From the IMG/VR virus record IMGVR_UViG_3300031772_000093, positions 1 to 40,548 of that record: 40,548 bases of DNA; one strand, 5' to 3'. Shown one piece after another: positions 31,540-40,548 of this stretch; the first letter of the stretch is position 1; each line of letters begins with the position of its first letter. The notes under the pieces were generated by a model. That model had not been told where the DNA came from and did not search any database. It saw only the letters and a program-made list of their open reading frames with translations. Source of the DNA: a virus. The position numbers and the translations under genes are program-made.

Positions 31540-32787
31540 ATGACCCCGAAAGAGACAACCGAAAGCGCGACCGACGACAAGATCATCTGCCTCGAATGCG
31601 GCGCGAGGCTCCAGCAATTGGCGGTCCACCTCGGCGCAAAGCACCATATCTCCGTCGCGGAATACCTCGCGCTCCATCCCGGAGCGCCCACCGTCAGCAA
31701 GAAAGCATCGGAAGCCATCCGGCAGGCCCAGCGCGCCAAGGGCCGCAAGAACAGGGGCGAAGCGAAGCCGGAACCCTCGCCGGAACCCTCGCCGGAGCCC
31801 GACGCGCTCAAGGAGGAGATCAAGGTGGAGAACGTTGTCGCCACGGGTCCGGTCGCGAGCGAGTGGCTGAGGATCGGGGAAGCCAACCTCCCGGTCTGGA
31901 CGGGGTGGAGCGCGGAGAGCCAGGCCAAGGTTCCCGATCACGACCTCCACTACCAACTGGACGAAAACATCCTCACCCAGATCGCGGTCGGCATCGAGCT
32001 GTTCGAAAACACGCTCATCTGGGGTCCTACCGGAGTCGGGAAGACAAGCCAGGTGTACGAACTGGCTTCGATCCTCAACTGGCCCGTCACCCGGATCAAC
32101 CTCAACGGCGACACCAGGGCTGCGGACCTCATCGGGGATATGAAGGTCTTCATCGACAGCGAGACTAAGCAGGCGATCACGAGTTGGGAGGATGGTCCGC
32201 TCGTCACGGCGATGCGGAACGGACATATCTTCCTGGTCGATGAAATCGATGCGGCCAGCCCCTCCGTGCTCTTCGTCATGCAGCGCGTCACGGAGCGTCA
32301 CCCCGACCCGGCAGCGGCGATCAAGGCCGGCAAACCCCACTGCTCGCTCCTCCTCCCGACCGGGGAAGTCGTCAACGCCCACCCCAACTTCCGCCTCATC
32401 GCCACGGCGAACACCATCGGAAGCGGGGACATGACCGGGGACTTCGCCGGTACCAACGTTCTCAACAAGGCGTTCCTCAGCCGCTGGGGAATCAAGGTGC
32501 GCGTCGAGTACCCCACCGAGATGATCTGGCGGACCATCCTCATGACCAAGACTGGAATCGATGTTACGAACGCAAACAAGATCGTCCAGGCCGCGCTCAA
32601 CGTCAACAGGGGGAAGCGCGATCAGCAGTGCCGCGTGTCGCTCTCTCCGCGCGAAACGCTCACTTGGGCGCGGCTCGCTGTGAAGTTCAACTCCGTGGCG
32701 CGCGCTGCCGAGTTGTCGGTCCTCAACGGCATCGACCCGATGGACCCTGATCGCGCCTTCGTTGCCGACGTCATCAAGAACGCCTGA
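31540..32787 (+). CDS. cobS: CobS-like AAA+ ATPase with N-terminal MucR-type zinc finger
   Basis: 415 aa. Residues about 14-50 (ICLECGARLQQLAVHLGAKHHISVAEYLALHPGAP) match the Ros/MucR zinc finger: Cys17, Cys20, His30 and His35/36. Then a PEPSPEPSPEP linker. The AAA+ module has GPTGVGKT at 162-169, Walker B HIFLVDEIDAASPSVLF, and MoxR/CobS-type LIATANTIGSGDM with FLSRWGIKV. CobS/CobT pairs in phages use MoxR-like ATPases to remodel or switch on partners; in bacteria they form part of cobaltochelatase. No CobN-type large subunit is here, so chelatase activity is unlikely. The following gene is the CobT partner. Confidence 0.88.
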   Translation: MTPKETTESATDDKIICLECGARLQQLAVHLGAKHHISVAEYLALHPGAPTVSKKASEAIRQAQRAKGRKNRGEAKPEPSPEPSPEPDALKEEIKVENVVATGPVASEWLRIGEANLPVWTGWSAESQAKVPDHDLHYQLDENILTQIAVGIELFENTLIWGPTGVGKTSQVYELASILNWPVTRINLNGDTRAADLIGDMKVFIDSETKQAITSWEDGPLVTAMRNGHIFLVDEIDAASPSVLFVMQRVTERHPDPAAAIKAGKPHCSLLLPTGEVVNAHPNFRLIATANTIGSGDMTGDFAGTNVLNKAFLSRWGIKVRVEYPTEMIWRTILMTKTGIDVTNANKIVQAALNVNRGKRDQQCRVSLSPRETLTWARLAVKFNSVARAAELSVLNGIDPMDPDRAFVADVIKNA

Positions 32788-32925
32788 AAAAAAAGTTCAA
32801 CAGGGATAGAGTGTAGCGGATGTTGCGAACGGATAAAAGCAAGAATACTGGTAGCGTTGCTAGGCGGATGTCTAGTACAGTATTCTTGAGACCGGGAAAC
32901 GGCTCGACAGATAAGGGGTAACGCG
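32788..32925 (+). promoter_or_regulatory. cobS-cobT intergenic regulatory region
   Basis: 138 bases, the longest gap in the window. It begins with an A8 tract (32787-32794, sharing one base with the cobS stop). TTCAAC at 32796 could be a -35 with a poor -10. It contains the inverted repeat listed separately at 32840-32888. AAGGGG before ATG 32926 is the ribosome site. A control point that sets CobT apart from CobS expression is likely. Confidence 0.4.
32840..32888. repeat. 11-base perfect inverted repeat with nested CTAG pair
   Basis: CAAGAATACTG (32840-32850) and CAGTATTCTTG (32878-32888) are perfect reverse complements, 27 bases apart. Inside, CTAG at 32860-32863 and CTAG at 32872-32875 are also palindromic and symmetric about nearly the same centre. 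No T-run follows. It could be an operator for a dimeric regulator or an RNA cruciform/stem. Confidence 0.65.
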
Positions 32926-34776
32926 ATGACGACGACAGAGAGAATGGAAACCCTCCTGGCTCCGCTCGGAAGCAGACTTGAGAAGATCGCGCGTGTCATG
33001 AGCCTCAACAGCGGAATCTCCGTCCGGTTCAACGGCAGCTCCTGCTGTACGGACGGGGAGCACTCGATCACCCTCCCCGACAACTGCGACAAGCTTTCCG
33101 CAGAGAATATGGACGTGGTCTGGGGGAAGCTCAACCACGAAGCGGAGCACGTCAGAGTACAGAAGGCGACAGCGGAGATGAAGGCGAATGGACGGCGCGC
33201 GCAAGTCAACGCCGACATCCTCGCACTCATCAAGACTTTCGCGAGCAAGGCGATCACCTCCCGACACGGCGCGGCTACCCCGAAGGACCTGATGGATAAC
33301 GAGGCCAACCCTCAGGTCCGCTTCTGGCTGAACGTGTACGAAGACATCCGCATCGAGCGGAACGTCAGCGAGCGGTGGAGCGGAGCGGCGGAACACCTCC
33401 GCGCTCTCAACACGGACTGCTACAAGACCTGGGCGAAGCAGCTCAAATCCGGAATGGGCTCGAAGAGCACGAGCGACCTCACCGGGATCGCGATCATCTT
33501 CGCCGACAAGGGCTGCGACATCTCCATCTTCCCGCAGGCCGTCCACGACGCGATCAAGGCTCTGACTCCAATCCTCCGCTACTCCGACGACAAGAACCTG
33601 AGGACGGTATGGGATTCCTACAATCTCGCCCTGGCGACCGTTGAAGCCATCGCTTCCGAAGGTAGCTCGATGCCGAAGCCGGAAGCGAAGCCGCAGCCAG
33701 GGAAGGGCGAAGAGGACACGACGGTGGAAGGTGAGGAGAGCGAAGAGGAGCCGGAAGAGGTCACCCCGGCTGAGGCTCTCAGGGCTCTCCGCAACTCCTC
33801 CCCGACGATGTCCGATCCGATGGCGCAGACCTCGGAAAAGAGAATCCAGAGCATGAGCCGAGGAGCGACCCCGAAGGACCCCACCGGGATGGCGTCAGAA
33901 AGCTACTCGGTCAACCCCAAGGCCGCAACCCAAGACCGCATCGAGGTTCCGGTCAGCGACCCGGCAGCAACCAAGAACCTCCGGAGGGATGTTGAGCGTC
34001 ACGCGGCTACGCTGAGCGCGCGGCTTCGCACTCTCCTGATGGCGCGCTCGGTCAGCCGCAAGACTTTCGACAACGACAGCGGAAAGCTGGACCGGCGTTC
34101 TTTGTATCGCCTCAATCGGCCCGGCTACCTCCCCTCTCGCAACATCTTCACCAAGGACATCTCCGGCGAAAAGCACGATGTAGCCGTTATGGTAATGCTG
34201 GACTGTTCCGGCTCGATGCACTCCGGCAAGACTTCTCTCGCCAAGCAGGGCGTTCTCCTCCTTGGGGATACCCTCAAGACCCTGGAAACGCTGGGGGTTA
34301 AGTTTGCGGTGTACGGGTTTACTGCGGACACGAACTGGGCGGAGGAGCACGGAACGGCGATGAGAGAGCGGTACTCCCGCGAGGAGCCGGTGCTCCACTA
34401 CCGCTTCAAGAACTGGAGCGAGAATTGGGCGATCACCTCCTCCCGAGTGGGCTCGGGTCAGACGCAGATGAATAACGCGGATGCCGATTCGGTCAAGTGG
34501 GCGTGCTCGGAACTGATGGGACAGAAGGCTTCGCGCCGCATCCTCTATGTACTTTCTGACGGCGCTCCGGCAGTCGCGGGGAAACGGGAAGATCAGGTCA
34601 AGGAGCTTCAGAGGGTTGTCGCCGGGGCAGAGAAGGTCGGCATCGAGGTGTTCGGGCTCGGAATCCTCAGCCACCAGGTGCGGCGCTTCTATCGCAATAA
34701 CAGGGTTGTAACCAAGACCGAAGATCTGCCAGCCGCCATTATCGAGATGGCGACTCAGTGGTTCAATAATAAGTAG
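32926..34776 (+). CDS. cobT: CobT-like VWA-domain protein
   Basis: 616 aa. ATG 32926. The N-terminal ~300 residues are the CobT-type helical domain (NHEAEHVRVQKATAEM with a His-Glu-x-x-His-like stretch, NVYEDIRIERNVSERW), followed by an acidic low-complexity linker (EGEESEEEPEEVTPAEA). The C-terminal VWA domain has the MIDAS motif DCSGSM (Asp426, Ser428, Ser430), with Asp545 in LSDGAPAV. The HEAEH segment at roughly residues 68-73 suggests a vestigial metal site. Partner of the AAA+ ATPase encoded upstream. Function in phages is unknown. Confidence 0.85.
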   Translation: MTTTERMETLLAPLGSRLEKIARVMSLNSGISVRFNGSSCCTDGEHSITLPDNCDKLSAENMDVVWGKLNHEAEHVRVQKATAEMKANGRRAQVNADILALIKTFASKAITSRHGAATPKDLMDNEANPQVRFWLNVYEDIRIERNVSERWSGAAEHLRALNTDCYKTWAKQLKSGMGSKSTSDLTGIAIIFADKGCDISIFPQAVHDAIKALTPILRYSDDKNLRTVWDSYNLALATVEAIASEGSSMPKPEAKPQPGKGEEDTTVEGEESEEEPEEVTPAEALRALRNSSPTMSDPMAQTSEKRIQSMSRGATPKDPTGMASESYSVNPKAATQDRIEVPVSDPAATKNLRRDVERHAATLSARLRTLLMARSVSRKTFDNDSGKLDRRSLYRLNRPGYLPSRNIFTKDISGEKHDVAVMVMLDCSGSMHSGKTSLAKQGVLLLGDTLKTLETLGVKFAVYGFTADTNWAEEHGTAMRERYSREEPVLHYRFKNWSENWAITSSRVGSGQTQMNNADADSVKWACSELMGQKASRRILYVLSDGAPAVAGKREDQVKELQRVVAGAEKVGIEVFGLGILSHQVRRFYRNNRVVTKTEDLPAAIIEMATQWFNNK

Positions 34777-34799: not shown

Positions 34800-35285
34800 A
34801 TGGAAACTCTCGATCAACTCCGAAACAAGTTCCGCACGAGCCTAGCAACGCAGGTCGCGTTCCCGAAGGAGGAGGCAGCCCCGGTATCCAAAGCAGCTTC
34901 TACACCAGGTCCTGATGAGGAAACCGTCAAGAGCGTACCTCAGCCGGAATCCCGTCCCACGACTTCGATCATGAACGCCGTTTTCACCGCTCCAGGGAAG
35001 GCCAAAGCGTACAAGGGTTGGGCGATGGCACTTACGAGGTCGGGAAGCGACTTCACCCTCACTCTCACTTGGGGCGCAACCGATACTTGGTCCGCTCTCA
35101 GCGAGCCGGGAACGACGTGGAATACCTCCTCGAAGGTGTATGAAAGCCGCATGACGGCACTTCGAGCGGTCAGAGAACGCGCCGGGGAACGGAAGGCGCA
35201 CGGGTACACCCTTCGCAATGTCTGGGTTCACGACACCGAGGGTTCCGACTTCAGCGCGTCCATCGACGCGATCATGGGGTCTTGA
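34800..35285 (+). CDS. Small protein with possible WGR-like domain
   Basis: 161 aa. Residues about 1-60 are low-complexity (Ala, Pro, Ser, Glu). Residues about 70-155 (YKGWAMALTRSGSDFTLTLTWGAT, then SRMTALRAVRERAGERKAHGYTL) follow the beta-hairpin, WG, then helix with ER-K--GY pattern of WGR domains, which bind nucleic acids or proteins in PARP and MolR proteins. The match is by eye and uncertain. Located directly after the CobT-like gene. Confidence 0.55.
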   Translation: METLDQLRNKFRTSLATQVAFPKEEAAPVSKAASTPGPDEETVKSVPQPESRPTTSIMNAVFTAPGKAKAYKGWAMALTRSGSDFTLTLTWGATDTWSALSEPGTTWNTSSKVYESRMTALRAVRERAGERKAHGYTLRNVWVHDTEGSDFSASIDAIMGS

Positions 35286-35286
35286 G

Positions 35287-36000
35287 ATGCTTCCTTCCCG
35301 GTTCAACTCCTCCGATGCGCTCAATCGAAAGTACCAGCAGGAAGAGCGCAAGTACATCGGCCTCATCAAACATAAGGCTTCCACTTGGTCCCATCGCGGA
35401 GCCGGGGACATCCGCGATCTCATCCAGGAAGGGCGCTGTTGCCTCCTGTACGCTCTCTCGCGGTTCGATGAGAGCCGGGGCAAGACGATGCCGCAGTTCC
35501 TTGGGCGAATCCTCGACAATACCTACACCTCGATGTTATCCGCAGCCCTGGCACAGAAGCGATGCCCCTCCATCTGGGAGCGGTCAGGCTCCGTCTGGAA
35601 GCGGGTTCCCTACCCGGAGTTGTCCGTGGAACAGGCTCGCGAGGAGTTGGGCGCTGACCCGCAGTCAGATGAGAAACCCCTCCCCGGAGAGGTTGACTCT
35701 GAAATGACGCCAGAGACAATCGCGATGTATAAGCAGCGTTCAGACAACGCCAAGGTTCTCCTCGTGCGTCTCCAGAACCGACTGACCCCGGAACAGCGGA
35801 GCGTCCTGGGTTGTGTCATCCGTCCGCCAGCCGGTCTTGTCGTTACCGCGCGAAACTTGTCTGGAGCATACCACGTTCGCAACGTCCATATCGCAGCCTA
35901 CCTCGGGATAACCAAGAATCAGGTGGACTACGCGCTTTACAACATTCGCAAACAGATCGTCCAGCTTTTCAACGAGGCTGGACCGGATCAGGAAGCGTAG
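35287..36000 (+). CDS. Phage sigma-70-family factor
   Basis: 237 aa. ATG 35287 lies two bases after the previous stop. Region 2 is at about residues 23-95 (YIGLIKHKASTWSHRGAGDIRDLIQEGRCCLLYALSRFDESRGKTMPQFLGRIL), with the core-binding helix pattern DLIQEG and F-D-x-S-R-G well conserved. A C-terminal region 4-like helix-turn-helix is at about 170-230 (LTPEQRSVLGCVI, NVHIAAYLGITKNQVDYALYNIRKQI). The C-terminal helix-turn-helix binds -35 promoter elements. A phage sigma of this kind would redirect host RNA polymerase to phage, probably late, promoters. Region 3 is reduced. Confidence 0.75.
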   Translation: MLPSRFNSSDALNRKYQQEERKYIGLIKHKASTWSHRGAGDIRDLIQEGRCCLLYALSRFDESRGKTMPQFLGRILDNTYTSMLSAALAQKRCPSIWERSGSVWKRVPYPELSVEQAREELGADPQSDEKPLPGEVDSEMTPETIAMYKQRSDNAKVLLVRLQNRLTPEQRSVLGCVIRPPAGLVVTARNLSGAYHVRNVHIAAYLGITKNQVDYALYNIRKQIVQLFNEAGPDQEA

Positions 36001-36003
36001 GGC

Positions 36004-36906
36004 ATGCCGATACTCTCCGACAAAGCCAATGATATCGCGATGGTAAAGCGTTACATCGAAGAGAACGGATTGGACCCTGTCCCCATTCGTACACGGGAAC
36101 CGGTGGCGGTTCGCAAAGGATTGTCCCGACTCGTGATGGAACACTACTCGTGGGGGCGCGTCTGCTTCGCCAGCGACCCTGGACGTTCCGCTTCTCAAAC
36201 GTGGGTAGAACACCAGGGAAGGCCAGAAACGGCTGCGTGGTCGTGGGAACTGCGGAAGCTGACTGAACAACCCGCGTTCGTTGAGGCTCTCCTCCCCTCC
36301 GAAACTGCCAAGCTGGACGCCCTTCGCGCCATGCCCGGCAAACGACGTGAGGAGATTGAGGATGAGGATGGCGTAGGGTACAGACCGATCCCGATGGGGT
36401 CAAGAACGCCAAGAGGGAAACGAAGGATCAGCCCTGCGGTCGCCAAGGCCCGGAAACAACCTCCGCGAAGGGTCGTCACCGAGAAAGCCAAGGCATCTAT
36501 TCAGCTCTGTTACGAACTGGTGCGAGCCATAGCATCGAACCTCGGCTGGGTGTTTGCGGAGAGCGAAGGGAAGGTCAGACCAGGGCAACTGTTTGTACGA
36601 GACAGTTATTGTACCTCGGGATACTTCAACCTCTTCATCCGTCAGAGAGGATACAAGAACACCTGGGTCGGAATCCTCAGGCCACGAACGGTTCGTGTTG
36701 TCGGTCCTGCGGTGAACGTACAGATCTTCAGCGGAGCCCTGGATGACGTTCGTCTGATCGTTCCCGACCGTCTTGAGGTCAAGGTCTGGAGCGACAAGGG
36801 CCACCTTTGCGTCGTCGTGAAGGGGATGGATACAGAAGCCGCTCCGTTTGTTGCGTCCGCGATTGCTTCGATCATTTCAGAGGGGAAACTGTATGGAAGG
36901 ATATGA
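36004..36906 (+). CDS. Hypothetical protein downstream of the sigma factor
   Basis: 300 aa, unrecognised. N-terminal region is mixed (residues 1-125), followed by a basic linker (RTPRGKRRISPAVAKARKQPPRRVV) at about 137-162 and a C-terminal domain of alternating strands (LFVRDSYCTSGYFNLFIRQRGY, VWSDKGHLCVVVKG). ATG 36004; its end overlaps the FAD gene start by 14 bases. Basic linker suggests nucleic acid contact. No catalytic motif seen. Confidence 0.7.
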   Translation: MPILSDKANDIAMVKRYIEENGLDPVPIRTREPVAVRKGLSRLVMEHYSWGRVCFASDPGRSASQTWVEHQGRPETAAWSWELRKLTEQPAFVEALLPSETAKLDALRAMPGKRREEIEDEDGVGYRPIPMGSRTPRGKRRISPAVAKARKQPPRRVVTEKAKASIQLCYELVRAIASNLGWVFAESEGKVRPGQLFVRDSYCTSGYFNLFIRQRGYKNTWVGILRPRTVRVVGPAVNVQIFSGALDDVRLIVPDRLEVKVWSDKGHLCVVVKGMDTEAAPFVASAIASIISEGKLYGRI

Positions 36907-37840
36907 CTACATCATCGTTGGAGCCGGTCCCACCGGCGTCATCGCGGCAGGAACCCTTCGAGCCTGGAAGCCCGACTACAAGGTTGCCGTTGTTGAACCG
37001 GGCCAGTTGATGGGGTCGCTTCTGGAAGGTGGGTTGCGCTATCTCCGCGCCCACGAAGATGTCCTGGACCTCCTTTCCGCTCTCCGGTTGAAGTACGACA
37101 CGACGCCGGTGCGCGGAGGAGTTTTGCTGGCGCATTCAGCAAGGGTCGTTCCCTACCCGGAAGGGTTGGACCGGACGCAGCGCGGAGCGGCCCAGCGTCT
37201 ACACTACCATAAAACACGGGGAACCCTCATAGGGTTCAACCCGAACACCACGATGAACTTCGGAGGAGCCCCTGTCGAGCGAGTGAACGTCTGTTTCAGG
37301 AGTCTCGTGGAATCGTGTCTCCGCAGGTCAGACCTCTTCCGGTTGAAGGCGACAGGGATAGGCGGGAATGGCGTGACCCTCGAAGATGGAACCCGGCTGA
37401 CCGCGCAGAAGGGCGTCATCTCCACCATCCCGCTCTTCACGCTCCTACAGATCCAGGGCGTCCCAGCGGTGGACTGTCCTCTCCTCTCCCAACGCTGGAC
37501 CACCGTCTTGACGGTCGGTTCCCTTTCTCTGTTCGACGTGTCGCCGTGGGACTACATCTACACCCCTTGGCTCCTCGCGATCAACCGCATTTCCAAGCTT
37601 CCGAATGGCGAGATACAGTTGGAACTCAACTCCCAAACCTCCGCTGACTGGACTGCCGACCTTCGATACCTTCAGGGACGGGCGGTGAGCGATGAACGTG
37701 CTCTCCCCGGTTACATCGCAGGACCGGAGTGGCGCTCATGGAAGCCCGCCAAGGGGCTCACGCTCCTGGGACGGTATGCGGCTTGGGAACCGCGCTTCAC
37801 CGTTGACCAAGCTGTTAGTCGTGTTAGGAGTATGGGATGA
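36893..37840 (+). CDS. FAD-dependent oxidoreductase (UGM/amine-oxidase-like)
   Basis: 315 aa. ATG 36893 overlaps the previous gene and follows GAGGGG. The Rossmann dinucleotide motif YIIVGAGPTGVIAAGTL (Gly10-x-Gly12-x-x-Gly15) begins at residue 6 and ends with VAVVEPG, typical FAD binding. RYLRAHEDVLDLLS, then GVISTIPLFTLL and near the end GLTLLGRYAAWEPRFTVDQAVSRV match the NAD_binding_8/UDP-galactopyranose mutase-like group. The enzyme likely oxidises, reduces or isomerises a small substrate. Overlaps the MazG fusion gene by four bases, so it belongs to the same pathway block. Confidence 0.75.
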   Translation: MEGYDYIIVGAGPTGVIAAGTLRAWKPDYKVAVVEPGQLMGSLLEGGLRYLRAHEDVLDLLSALRLKYDTTPVRGGVLLAHSARVVPYPEGLDRTQRGAAQRLHYHKTRGTLIGFNPNTTMNFGGAPVERVNVCFRSLVESCLRRSDLFRLKATGIGGNGVTLEDGTRLTAQKGVISTIPLFTLLQIQGVPAVDCPLLSQRWTTVLTVGSLSLFDVSPWDYIYTPWLLAINRISKLPNGEIQLELNSQTSADWTADLRYLQGRAVSDERALPGYIAGPEWRSWKPAKGLTLLGRYAAWEPRFTVDQAVSRVRSMG

Positions 37841-38724
37841 AGAAGCTACTTGAAGCTCAGGCGCGCCAACAGAGGCTTTGGTATGACGTTTCGAGCCTGA
37901 CGCCGGAACAGCGAAGTGAATGGACCGATGAACTCCTCCTGGGGCTCTATGAGGAGGTAGGAGAACTGGCCCGTCAGATCCGTACCAGGGCCCACGTCAA
38001 GCCGGAGCGCGTGCCGGGCGGGAACGTCCTGGCTGAGACGGTTGACGTCCTCAAGTATCTCCTCGCTCTGTCTGACCTCCGTGGAATCTCCGCGGAGGAG
38101 TTGGAGCGCGCTTTCATGGAGAAGACAGAGGCGGTGACGGCGCGTTATCGGCAACGCCATCTGGAGCTGACCGAACAGACCTGTGTCCTGGTAACAGACC
38201 TCGATGGGTGCGTCGCTGATGCTCTTCCCTTCGTGGAACGCTTCGGAGCGTACCACAATGAGAAGGGAAGCGGATTGGAGCGGGAACAAGCCGTGTCCGA
38301 ATGGTATGAGAGCGGCGGGTTCTTGGATCTCGAAGTCGTTGCCGGAGCGCGCGAAACTCTGGCTGAGGCCAGGTCAAACGGCTGCTTGATCGCCATCGTA
38401 ACCGCTCGCCCCCAGTGGGCGCACCGGCGCGTCTATCTCGACACCGTTGGGTGGCTACGCAAGCACGGCATCGAGTACGACATCCTCGTGTTCGAAAAAG
38501 ACAAGCACGACGCCCTGATCCGACACGTGCTCCCGGCGCGCGTCATCGGGTTCGTGGAGGATCGGGACAAGCACGCCATCGAGCTGGCCGCCCATAACAT
38601 TCCGGTGCTGCTAATGGACTACCCTTGGAACCGCAACACGGTTCCGGCTCCCCACCCGTTCATCCGGCGAGTTGCCGGCTGGACCGAGATACGGGAACAC
38701 CTTGCATCGAAGGAGTGGAAGTAA
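37837..38724 (+). CDS. MazG pyrophosphohydrolase fused to 5'(3')-deoxyribonucleotidase
   Basis: 295 aa. ATG 37837 gives ATGA overlap; TAGGAG is upstream. Residues 1-110: MazG-type ExxE...ExxD site, Glu40-Glu43 (EEVGE) and Glu67-Asp70 (ETVDVL), which hydrolyses NTPs or dNTPs to monophosphates. Residues 115-295: HAD fold with VTDLDGCVADALPF (Asp121, Asp123), Thr189 in VTARP, Lys222 region and EDRDKHA (Glu241, Asp242), typical of 5'(3')-deoxyribonucleotidases. The fusion would turn a nucleotide triphosphate to monophosphate and then nucleoside in one chain. In hypermodifying phages such enzymes clear unmodified dNTPs (inference). Confidence 0.85.
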   Translation: MKKLLEAQARQQRLWYDVSSLTPEQRSEWTDELLLGLYEEVGELARQIRTRAHVKPERVPGGNVLAETVDVLKYLLALSDLRGISAEELERAFMEKTEAVTARYRQRHLELTEQTCVLVTDLDGCVADALPFVERFGAYHNEKGSGLEREQAVSEWYESGGFLDLEVVAGARETLAEARSNGCLIAIVTARPQWAHRRVYLDTVGWLRKHGIEYDILVFEKDKHDALIRHVLPARVIGFVEDRDKHAIELAAHNIPVLLMDYPWNRNTVPAPHPFIRRVAGWTEIREHLASKEWK

Positions 38725-39740
38725 TGGAACCCTCGAATAGCCCCAAGGTCACCCTCATCGGATGGACCTCCAGCCTCATCCCGTCTGGCTCCGCTTCTCA
38801 GCCTAACCGGCTGGGTCCGCTCCAGGTCATCGCCATCGTCTGGAAGCAGTCCAAGGAGGTAAAACCCCTCCACGAGATCATACAGGAAGTGTACGCGATG
38901 GGCGAGGAGGAGCTGGCCGACCTGATGACGCGCGTCCTTGAGGGCGTTCCCGTCGTGGAAGCGGTTACCTTCAACTTCGTCCTGGAGAACGTGTCGATCA
39001 GCTGGCGGGAACAGATGGTCCGACATCGCGTCGGAACGCATCCCGATCCGCGAGTCGGCGTGGACTGGGACATCGCGGTCCAGGAGATTCCCGAGTTGGC
39101 CGACATGAGCGCGTGGAGCCAGTCGATGCGGCTCCTCGACATGAGCAACTTCGCGAAGGAGCGCCGGTACAGGACGCCGGAGAGCGTGGTGAAACTCGGT
39201 GAGGACGCAGTCAAGGACTGGGACACGCATATGCGGACCATCGAGATCATGTATGAGAGTTGGGCGCTTCGGGGCGTACCACTCGAAGATGCGCGTGATC
39301 TCATCCCGCTCGGAGCAACGTCGCGCATCGCCTGGACGCTCAACCTCCGAACCCTCCAGCATATCGTCGGGAAGCGCGGTTGTACCATCCTCCAGTTGGG
39401 CCTCTGGGGCCCAATCATCCAGGGGATGATCGCGGAGCTGGTCGCGAAGATCCACCCCATCTTCGGAACCCTCGTGACTCCGCCGTGCCTGAAGGGGGAC
39501 AAATACGTGGGATGCCTCTTCCCCGAAGACATCCGACGCCGTGGGGAAGGCCAGGATGGCTACCTCCCGGTCTGTCCGCTCTTCCTGGGATGCGACCGAA
39601 CCCCACTGGGCCACGACCTGCGAGAACGACGGGCTGCGGGTACGCTCCCCAACCTTGAAGGGACGATCATGGAAGCGGAACGGCGGGAACGGTTCTGGGC
39701 TCGCGACCCGTGGACCGGCGCTCGCAAAGGGAGGTCGTGA
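38724..39740 (+). CDS. ThyX-like flavin-dependent pyrimidine methyl/hydroxymethyl-transferase, divergent
   Basis: 338 aa. ATG 38724 overlaps the previous stop by one base (TAATG) after AAGGAG. Core resembles ThyX: VPVVEAVTFNFVLENVSISWREQMVRHRVGT with Arg100-His101-Arg102, later FAKERRY, GVPLEDARDLIPLGATSRIAWTLNLRTLQHIV and CTILQLGLW. The ThyX signature RHRxxSxNExSxR is altered after RHR (GTHPDPRVGVDWD). The C-terminal ~85 residues contain four Cys (255, 264, 284, 290) absent from normal ThyX, suggesting a metal or iron-sulfur site. Could make thymidylate or, given neighbours, a hydroxymethyl or other modified pyrimidine. Exact reaction unknown. Confidence 0.75.
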   Translation: MEPSNSPKVTLIGWTSSLIPSGSASQPNRLGPLQVIAIVWKQSKEVKPLHEIIQEVYAMGEEELADLMTRVLEGVPVVEAVTFNFVLENVSISWREQMVRHRVGTHPDPRVGVDWDIAVQEIPELADMSAWSQSMRLLDMSNFAKERRYRTPESVVKLGEDAVKDWDTHMRTIEIMYESWALRGVPLEDARDLIPLGATSRIAWTLNLRTLQHIVGKRGCTILQLGLWGPIIQGMIAELVAKIHPIFGTLVTPPCLKGDKYVGCLFPEDIRRRGEGQDGYLPVCPLFLGCDRTPLGHDLRERRAAGTLPNLEGTIMEAERRERFWARDPWTGARKGRS

Positions 39741-40548
39741 TGGACCAGCACCTCCTCTACATCGCCAACCAACTCCCCTTCACGGCGGTCAAGGGTGATG
39801 GCCCCTTCCTGTGCGACCCGCATGGGTTCACCTACATCGATATGTGGAACGACAACGGCGTGGCGTCAATGGGGTACTCCTCGGGTATCGTGGAGGAGAC
39901 CATCTCCAACTTCCTGGCGCTCAAGGCGCCCCATCGCGCTCCCCTCATGGTGAATACAGCCATCCGCGAAGCCTACTCCAAGGCCATCTGCGCGGAGGTC
40001 GGGATGGACCGCGTGTTCTACGCCAACGGCGGGAGTGACGCGGTTGAATCCGCGATCAAACTGGCGAGGCTGTATCAGTACAAGGAGAATGAGAGCTGTT
40101 GCCAGAACGGAATCGCGACCATCTCCCACAACTACCACGGAGCGACGGGGTTTGCTCTGGCCGCCAATGACGATCATGACTATCCCTACCGCAAGGACCC
40201 GTTCTATGGACCTCACCAACAGACCACTTTCATCGAGGGATTCTGCGCGATGGATGAGGACTTCAACCTGGTTTATGGGGGCGGAGGGGATCAACGGCTT
40301 CGCGAGGAGCAGATCGGAGCCGTCATCCTCGCGCCCATCCCGGCTGACTACACCGCCATCAACATGCGAAGCCCGGAATGGCACGCGGCTCTCCGGCGCT
40401 GGTGTGACGATCATGGCGCACTCCTGATTCACGACGACGTACAAGCAGGGGCTGGTCGCTGTGGCTACTTCGCTTCGTGGAAGCACCCCTCTATCGGAGC
40501 GAAGCCCGACATTGTTACGCTTGGAAAAGGCGTTGCGATGGGGTTCCC
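39740..40548 (+). CDS. Class III PLP-dependent aminotransferase (3' partial)
   Basis: 269 complete codons; no stop before the window ends. ATG 39740 overlaps the ThyX-like stop and follows GGGAGG. Family marks: FYANGGSDAVESAIKLAR, NYHGATG, IHDDVQAGAGRCGYF with Asp232 contacting the PLP ring, and PDIVTLGKGVAMGF with Lys263 as Schiff-base lysine. This is the fold of ornithine/acetylornithine and glutamate-1-semialdehyde aminotransferases (typically about 400-450 aa). It would transfer an amino group to or from an aldehyde or ketone; substrate unknown. Its place in the FAD/MazG/ThyX-like block suggests a role in making an aminated nucleotide product. Confidence 0.85.
   Translation, partial: MDQHLLYIANQLPFTAVKGDGPFLCDPHGFTYIDMWNDNGVASMGYSSGIVEETISNFLALKAPHRAPLMVNTAIREAYSKAICAEVGMDRVFYANGGSDAVESAIKLARLYQYKENESCCQNGIATISHNYHGATGFALAANDDHDYPYRKDPFYGPHQQTTFIEGFCAMDEDFNLVYGGGGDQRLREEQIGAVILAPIPADYTAINMRSPEWHAALRRWCDDHGALLIHDDVQAGAGRCGYFASWKHPSIGAKPDIVTLGKGVAMGF

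Follow-up and report, generated by a model that had tools for sequence, protein, structure and literature searches.

Phages M6, ViI and PhiW-14 carry a base derived from 5-hydroxymethyldeoxyuridine (5hmdU) that is finished on the DNA by a 5-hydroxymethyluracil (HMU) DNA kinase and transferases (PMC6449724). In phage SP-15 the base is 5-(4',5'-dihydroxypentyl)uracil, made as a nucleoside triphosphate according to the title of Walker and Mandel (1978), as cited in PMC5977210. Here, we describe a gene module at the right edge of the IMG/VR virus record IMGVR_UViG_3300031772_000093; the whole record of 40,548 bases is referred to as the window and belongs to a contractile-tailed phage (tail-sheath, baseplate and tape-measure genes). 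Four consecutive plus-strand genes encode a flavin adenine dinucleotide (FAD)-dependent oxidoreductase (36893–37840, 315 residues), a fusion of a MazG-like pyrophosphohydrolase and an NT5C-type (HAD) pyrimidine deoxynucleotidase (MazG-HAD; 37837–38724, 295 residues), a ThyX-like enzyme (38724–39740, 338 residues; start ATG at 38724, alternative GTG at 38715) and a pyridoxal phosphate-dependent class III aminotransferase (39740–40548, start ATG at 39740), of which the first 269 residues precede the contig edge that cuts the gene. A reading made from the letters of this DNA (hereafter the sequence-only reading) had proposed these four genes as a translationally coupled hypermodification cluster. 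Direct reading of the sequence confirmed the positions and the overlapping junctions (ATGA at 37837–37840, TAATG at 38722–38726 and TGATG at 39738–39742), and the family assignments were upheld by domain searches and a fold model of the FAD protein. The pathway is strongly supported by gene context, and we consider it likely that the module supplies a modified-pyrimidine deoxynucleoside triphosphate (dNTP) of some kind for the phage DNA. That it acts at the nucleotide level to replace thymine by a modified thymine is also probable, if with rather less assurance; an aminated product, the chemistry of which we infer, is a tentative suggestion.

A scan of viral contigs with an alignment of the ThyX-like enzyme brought out a distinct clade of 36 loci (E < 1e-41, followed by a gap to 3e-17); single-protein scans of the viral contigs with the window ThyX or FAD protein gave no matches, an alignment being needed as the query. 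The window arrangement is seen in ten of the 36 loci, in two of which the FAD gene is visible by profile only. Because the contig stops at 40548, the end of the record, the continuation of the module has to be read from these relatives: loci of the window type go on with a P-loop protein of about 200 residues and then, usually, with the α subunit of DNA polymerase III (DnaE). The P-loop protein profile matches a thymidylate kinase in the PDB (E = 4e-8, positions 2–170) and also a PHROG thymidylate kinase family. In a second scan, with the aminotransferase alone, all 19 distinct lineages with a strong match (L093–L116 and L167, after merging of near-identical contigs) also encode the FAD protein, MazG-HAD, the clade ThyX and the kinase, all five genes sharing one strand and a span of some 6 kb; for the FAD protein, L116 (43 bits) and L167 (88 bits) give weak matches. 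Loci with weak aminotransferase homologues are without the module. L100, L103 and L110–L114 keep the set together but have ThyX, aminotransferase and kinase in a permuted order, and the module of L114 holds two aminotransferases. This recurrence in 19 other distinct viral lineages is more than chance. Every relative's module includes the thymidylate-kinase-like kinase, with a DnaE-type polymerase next in nearly all, which bears out the statement of the sequence-only reading that the cluster runs on past the right edge; the check for nearby kinases that it had proposed also came out in its favour. Since several of the relative contigs measure 102–116 kb, the window probably derives from a genome equally large; the near-complete genomes of the window group come from uncultured viruses. 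Some modules hold additional genes: an NAD-dependent epimerase of the nucleotide-sugar type in L104 (L104:5598–7010) and a possibly methyltransferase-like protein of about 260 residues in L095 (L095:5092–5892), L098, L101 and L102.

The ThyX-like protein scores 63.7 bits against Pfam Thy1 (PF02511; cut-off 24.8), placing it in the superfamily, and 52.7 bits against the NCBIfam thyX equivalog TIGR02170, below the cut-off of 87.9 for a thymidylate synthase. Its predicted model (mean predicted local distance difference test score, pLDDT, 83) has ThyX structures as all of its best 50 Foldseek matches despite about 15% identity. The window enzyme shares with canonical ThyX the fold, the R-H-R motif and the residues that bind deoxyuridine monophosphate (dUMP), keeping R-H-R, S134, R136, R191 and R218. 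Clade residues that align with S88, R90, R147 and R174 of Thermotoga maritima ThyX, which we take to be the dUMP contacts, are invariant across 20 lineages. It differs from canonical ThyX, besides the sub-cut-off NCBIfam score, in an insertion of 18–24 residues between R-H-R and S-x-R (24 in the window), which alters the canonical RHR-x7-S spacing, in a C-terminal extension with three cysteines invariant in the clade (Cys255, Cys264 and Cys284 in the window) and in its long separate branch. Loss of the Ser/Arg dUMP-binding motif was ruled out, realignment showing that the motif is displaced by the insertion. In a maximum-likelihood tree with 28 other phage ThyX proteins outside the clade, the clade and a protein of Listeria phage LIS04 share a branch that is 2.7 changes per site long (support 100/100); LIS04 and SP-15 gp9 form very long branches, the exact placement of which is unsure. 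The aminotransferase-bearing members cluster together with support (84/98) under the starred level. Scanning 84,980 bacterial and archaeal genomes brought up no relative of the clade. The enzyme, which the sequence-only reading had called divergent, does belong to the ThyX superfamily, but by these alignments it is better described as a member of a separate, phage-only clade with an altered active site. An apparent intein-like insertion was seen in the alignment exactly inside the RHR/S-x-R motif of the ThyX of methanogen virus vir335 (L008:4029–5510).

In the MazG-HAD fusion, the NT5C nucleotidase domain scores 38.2 bits (cut-off 24.8) and the MazG domain 20.4 bits, under its cut-off of 22; the metal-site motif of the latter is nonetheless kept in relatives. 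HAD residues D121, D123, K223 and D242 and MazG residues D70 and K73 are invariant in 20 lineages. The aminotransferase matches Aminotran_3 with 133 bits (cut-off 30.5), and its catalytic Lys263 and Asp232 are present in 20 of 20 lineages.

These features bear on two other explanations. The base could be a modified cytosine or other pyrimidine, with the ThyX-like enzyme taking dCMP and MazG-NT5C clearing dCTP and dCMP. Enzymes of the MazG type, like HAD nucleotidases, accept several pyrimidine nucleotides, and the insertion beside the substrate site could shift base specificity; the invariance of the presumed dUMP contacts and the thymidylate-kinase-like nature of the kinase speak against this explanation, and we regard it as unlikely. 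Alternatively, the genes could serve ordinary nucleotide supply, ThyX making dTMP for the kinase to phosphorylate, MazG-NT5C performing housekeeping such as the prevention of dUTP, with no relation between these enzymes and the neighbouring FAD and aminotransferase genes. Phages commonly carry ThyX and deoxynucleoside monophosphate (dNMP) kinases, and searches for a ThyA-type dUMP hydroxymethylase (PF00303) found none in 21 and 15 records of at most 116 kb, which may be incomplete; control genomes gave matches. However, the aminotransferase and FAD genes stay with ThyX in all 19 lineages despite the reordering, the ThyX score is far under the curated thymidylate synthase cut-off and a dedicated nucleotidase opposing dTMP synthesis makes little sense. 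In addition, LIS04 encodes a true ThyA beside its clade-type ThyX, so the latter is not required there for ordinary dTMP. Taken together, ordinary supply appears very unlikely.

The FAD protein gave FAD-binding family matches that were all below threshold in the domain search. Its AlphaFold model (pLDDT 80) resembles monoamine oxidases, L-amino-acid oxidase, UDP-galactopyranose mutase and renalase in the PDB. Profile comparison (hhalign, E = 2.6e-10 over 267 columns) relates the window family to an FAD protein encoded 5' of ThyX in Pbunavirus, Wifcevirus and Myosmarvirus, where it is annotated as a UDP-galactopyranose mutase or polyamine oxidase. A scan with the Pbunavirus/Wifcevirus-type family alone (alignment A8, FAD alignment A9 being too diverse for scanning) found 80 loci, among which all 76 evaluable ones carry a same-strand ThyX gene downstream; in the other four the sequence ends no more than about 800 bases from the gene. 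The two genes abut in 22 cases. Some phages are represented among the 80 loci by near-copies, and the independent events therefore number fewer than 76. Proteins of the FAD family thus almost always accompany an ordinary phage ThyX, that of Pbunavirus and Wifcevirus included. The oxidoreductase that the sequence-only reading had placed in the cluster is indeed there, but as a general, conserved ThyX partner in phages and no mere extra.

These predicted functions can be arranged as follows. MazG-NT5C would take canonical dTTP (or dCTP) to the dNMP and on to the nucleoside, removing the competitor. The ThyX-like enzyme would place a carbon unit on C5 of dUMP and leave a functionalized group there instead of a plain methyl; candidates are a hydroxymethyl, a formyl or a longer aldehyde-derived chain. 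The FAD protein might oxidize this C5 group or the donor of that group, and the aminotransferase might turn the carbonyl into a primary amine or, in the reverse direction, supply an aldehyde donor. A flavin oxidase and then an aminotransferase acting on a nucleoside have a precedent in the nucleoside antibiotic pacidamycin. The new dNMP would then be phosphorylated by the thymidylate-kinase-like enzyme known from relatives past the window edge and incorporated by the adjacent DnaE polymerase, and the genome would thereby be shielded from host restriction.

By predicted function, canonical-nucleotide clearance, a modified-dNMP synthase, a dNMP kinase and a polymerase are encoded together in 19 lineages. 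Kinase and DnaE are what nucleotide-level base replacement needs, and their presence in relatives supports the earlier interpretation. The hypermodification proposal thus gains from the kinase, the polymerase and the conserved module, with the amendment that modification probably takes place on the nucleotide and not on the DNA, since the records hold no HMU-DNA kinase and almost no glycosyltransferases. A search for the kinase (PF18723, HMUDK_hel) was negative in all 15 records and positive in the control phage M6 (E = 1.4e-57). Confident glycosyltransferase matches were confined to a single record and, of the amine or sugar chemistry that the sequence-only reading had named for known pathways, no sugar step is therefore put forward here. 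The same gene order bears on a third explanation, in which the product is a modified free nucleotide with another use, such as signalling, an antibiotic-like or counter-defence small molecule or RNA modification. Flavin oxidation followed by transamination of nucleosides, as in pacidamycin, would suit this, as would the epimerase in the L104 module; it is made very improbable by the dNMP kinase and replicative polymerase that come next, by the competitor-clearing nucleotidase, which is typical of base replacement, and by the occurrence of a related FAD–ThyX pair in phages with restriction-resistant DNA.

Every Wifcevirus isolate withstands the restriction systems tested, EcoP1_I excepted, by no known mechanism (PMC11990801). 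The PB1-like phage JG024 encodes both the FAD protein and ThyX (matches H173 and H63), and its DNA is left uncut by ScaI, NdeI and BsaI and is cut by XbaI (PMC10913387) and, in an earlier study, by SacII (PMC3008698). The resistant sites (AGTACT, CATATG and GGTCTC) all hold T and the SacII site (CCGCGG) is without T, a pattern that is no more than suggestive of T modification. It also counts against a modified cytosine, with the qualification that the sites contain C too. Several points weigh against thymine replacement. The XbaI site (TCTAGA) holds T and is cut, so any T modification in JG024 is partial or context-dependent, and the authors of the JG024 study proposed methylation as the cause (PMC10913387). 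The phages that show resistance have the simpler FAD–ThyX pair instead of the window-type module. The window itself, being a fragment, lacks the kinase, and kinase and MazG could also serve canonical nucleotide supply. Finally, the pathway is read from the gene set, its conservation as a unit, the catalytic residues kept, the ThyX clade with its altered active site and the FAD–ThyX partnership; we infer each reaction, as we do the base that is replaced, the amine and the part played in protection.

Immediately 5' of the FAD gene, a 300-residue protein of an unknown family (36004–36906, plus strand; cluster C18) gave no Pfam or PHROG match; it is kept beside the FAD gene in several relatives, and whether it is part of the pathway is uncertain. 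Directly 5' of the module lies a phage sigma-70-like factor (35218–36000), also kept in relatives, which may drive module expression. Farther upstream (31540–34776), an AAA ATPase with an N-terminal ROS/MUCR-type domain and a VWA protein resemble cobaltochelatase CobS/CobT; these genes are kept 5' of the module in some relatives.

Sister cassettes of the clade ThyX (L013, L014, L016, L022, L027, L031, L036, L038, L045 and others) are without the aminotransferase and probably represent a second modification chemistry. Their neighbours include radical SAM/SPASM proteins, a DUF6378 gene, short-chain dehydrogenases/reductases (SDRs), an HD (YfbR/DatZ-like) phosphohydrolase, nucleoside 2-deoxyribosyltransferase and family A DNA polymerase, and some of the contigs carry two ThyX-like genes. 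The DatZ-like HD gene raised the idea of a Z-genome (2-aminoadenine) for the sister phages, which was rejected, PurZ (PF00709) being found in none of 20 ThyX-clade records and the gene of about 350 codons encoding a PD-(D/E)XK nuclease. The genes flanking one clade ThyX, in L034 (L034:590–6857), are three members of an unknown family of about 300 residues, a dCMP deaminase, an SDR and a weakly glycosyltransferase-8-like protein.

If the proposal is correct, phages can replace thymine by a second enzymatic route, independent of the first and using ThyX in place of ThyA, and uncultured viruses carry it widely. The resistance of Wifcevirus to nearly all tested restriction systems and that of JG024 DNA to several enzymes would then have a testable cause, many phage 'thymidylate synthase' genes would be misannotated and new nucleotide-modifying enzymes would be indicated. 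Hints of such a chemical disguise apparently extend to phages already in therapeutic use. No account of a ThyX-based modification pathway turned up in a literature search, most subscription journals, including the two main thymidine hypermodification papers, lying outside its reach.

Pbunavirus, Wifcevirus and Myosmarvirus are among the known phages that come near to the window, having FAD–ThyX–HAD loci with a homologous FAD protein 5' of ThyX and an adjoining DNA polymerase. In place of MazG, their HAD phosphatase is fused to a putative DUF6378-like domain (our comparison). Their ThyX falls outside the window clade and they lack the aminotransferase, instead of which Wifcevirus and Myosmarvirus have SDR and glyoxalase-like genes. 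It is conceivable, though we would not yet favour it, that the phage ThyX branch annotated as thymidylate synthase, including that of Pbunavirus and Wifcevirus, works with its obligate flavoprotein to make a 5-functionalized dUMP that replaces thymine, the five-enzyme version of the window carrying the product to an amine before polymerization.

SP-15 resembles the window system in a modified pyrimidine reportedly made at the triphosphate level and in having two ThyX homologues and no ThyA; as in the sister cassettes, ThyX stands beside an SDR and a nucleoside deoxyribosyltransferase. In SP-15 (L092:25730–28911, gp127–gp130, and L092:325–987, gp90), the SDR and the divergent ThyX are coupled, with the nucleoside deoxyribosyltransferase as their neighbour. 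It differs in that no aminotransferase or FAD homologue occurs in the SP-15 stretches examined and in that gp130 matches the clade profile marginally (E = 0.03), being too divergent to place. Direct orthology of gp130 to the clade ThyX was set aside on account of this weak match; gp130 is retained as a lead and is a candidate synthase of the dihydroxypentyluracil base.

With M6, ViI and PhiW-14 the window system would share an altered dTTP pool, a thymidylate-synthase homologue giving a 5-substituted dUMP, later amine addition and restriction resistance (PMC6449724, PMC5977210). The window type differs from them in using ThyX, without ThyA or HMUDK, and in having a kinase of the thymidylate kinase type, which suggests that the base is completed before polymerization. 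The absence from relatives of the two M6/ViI marks, the ThyA hydroxymethylase and the HMU-DNA kinase, agrees with the statement of the sequence-only reading that the gene set fits no pathway known exactly. The system works like the nucleotide-level class of base replacement, yet it is not a member of the M6-type family.

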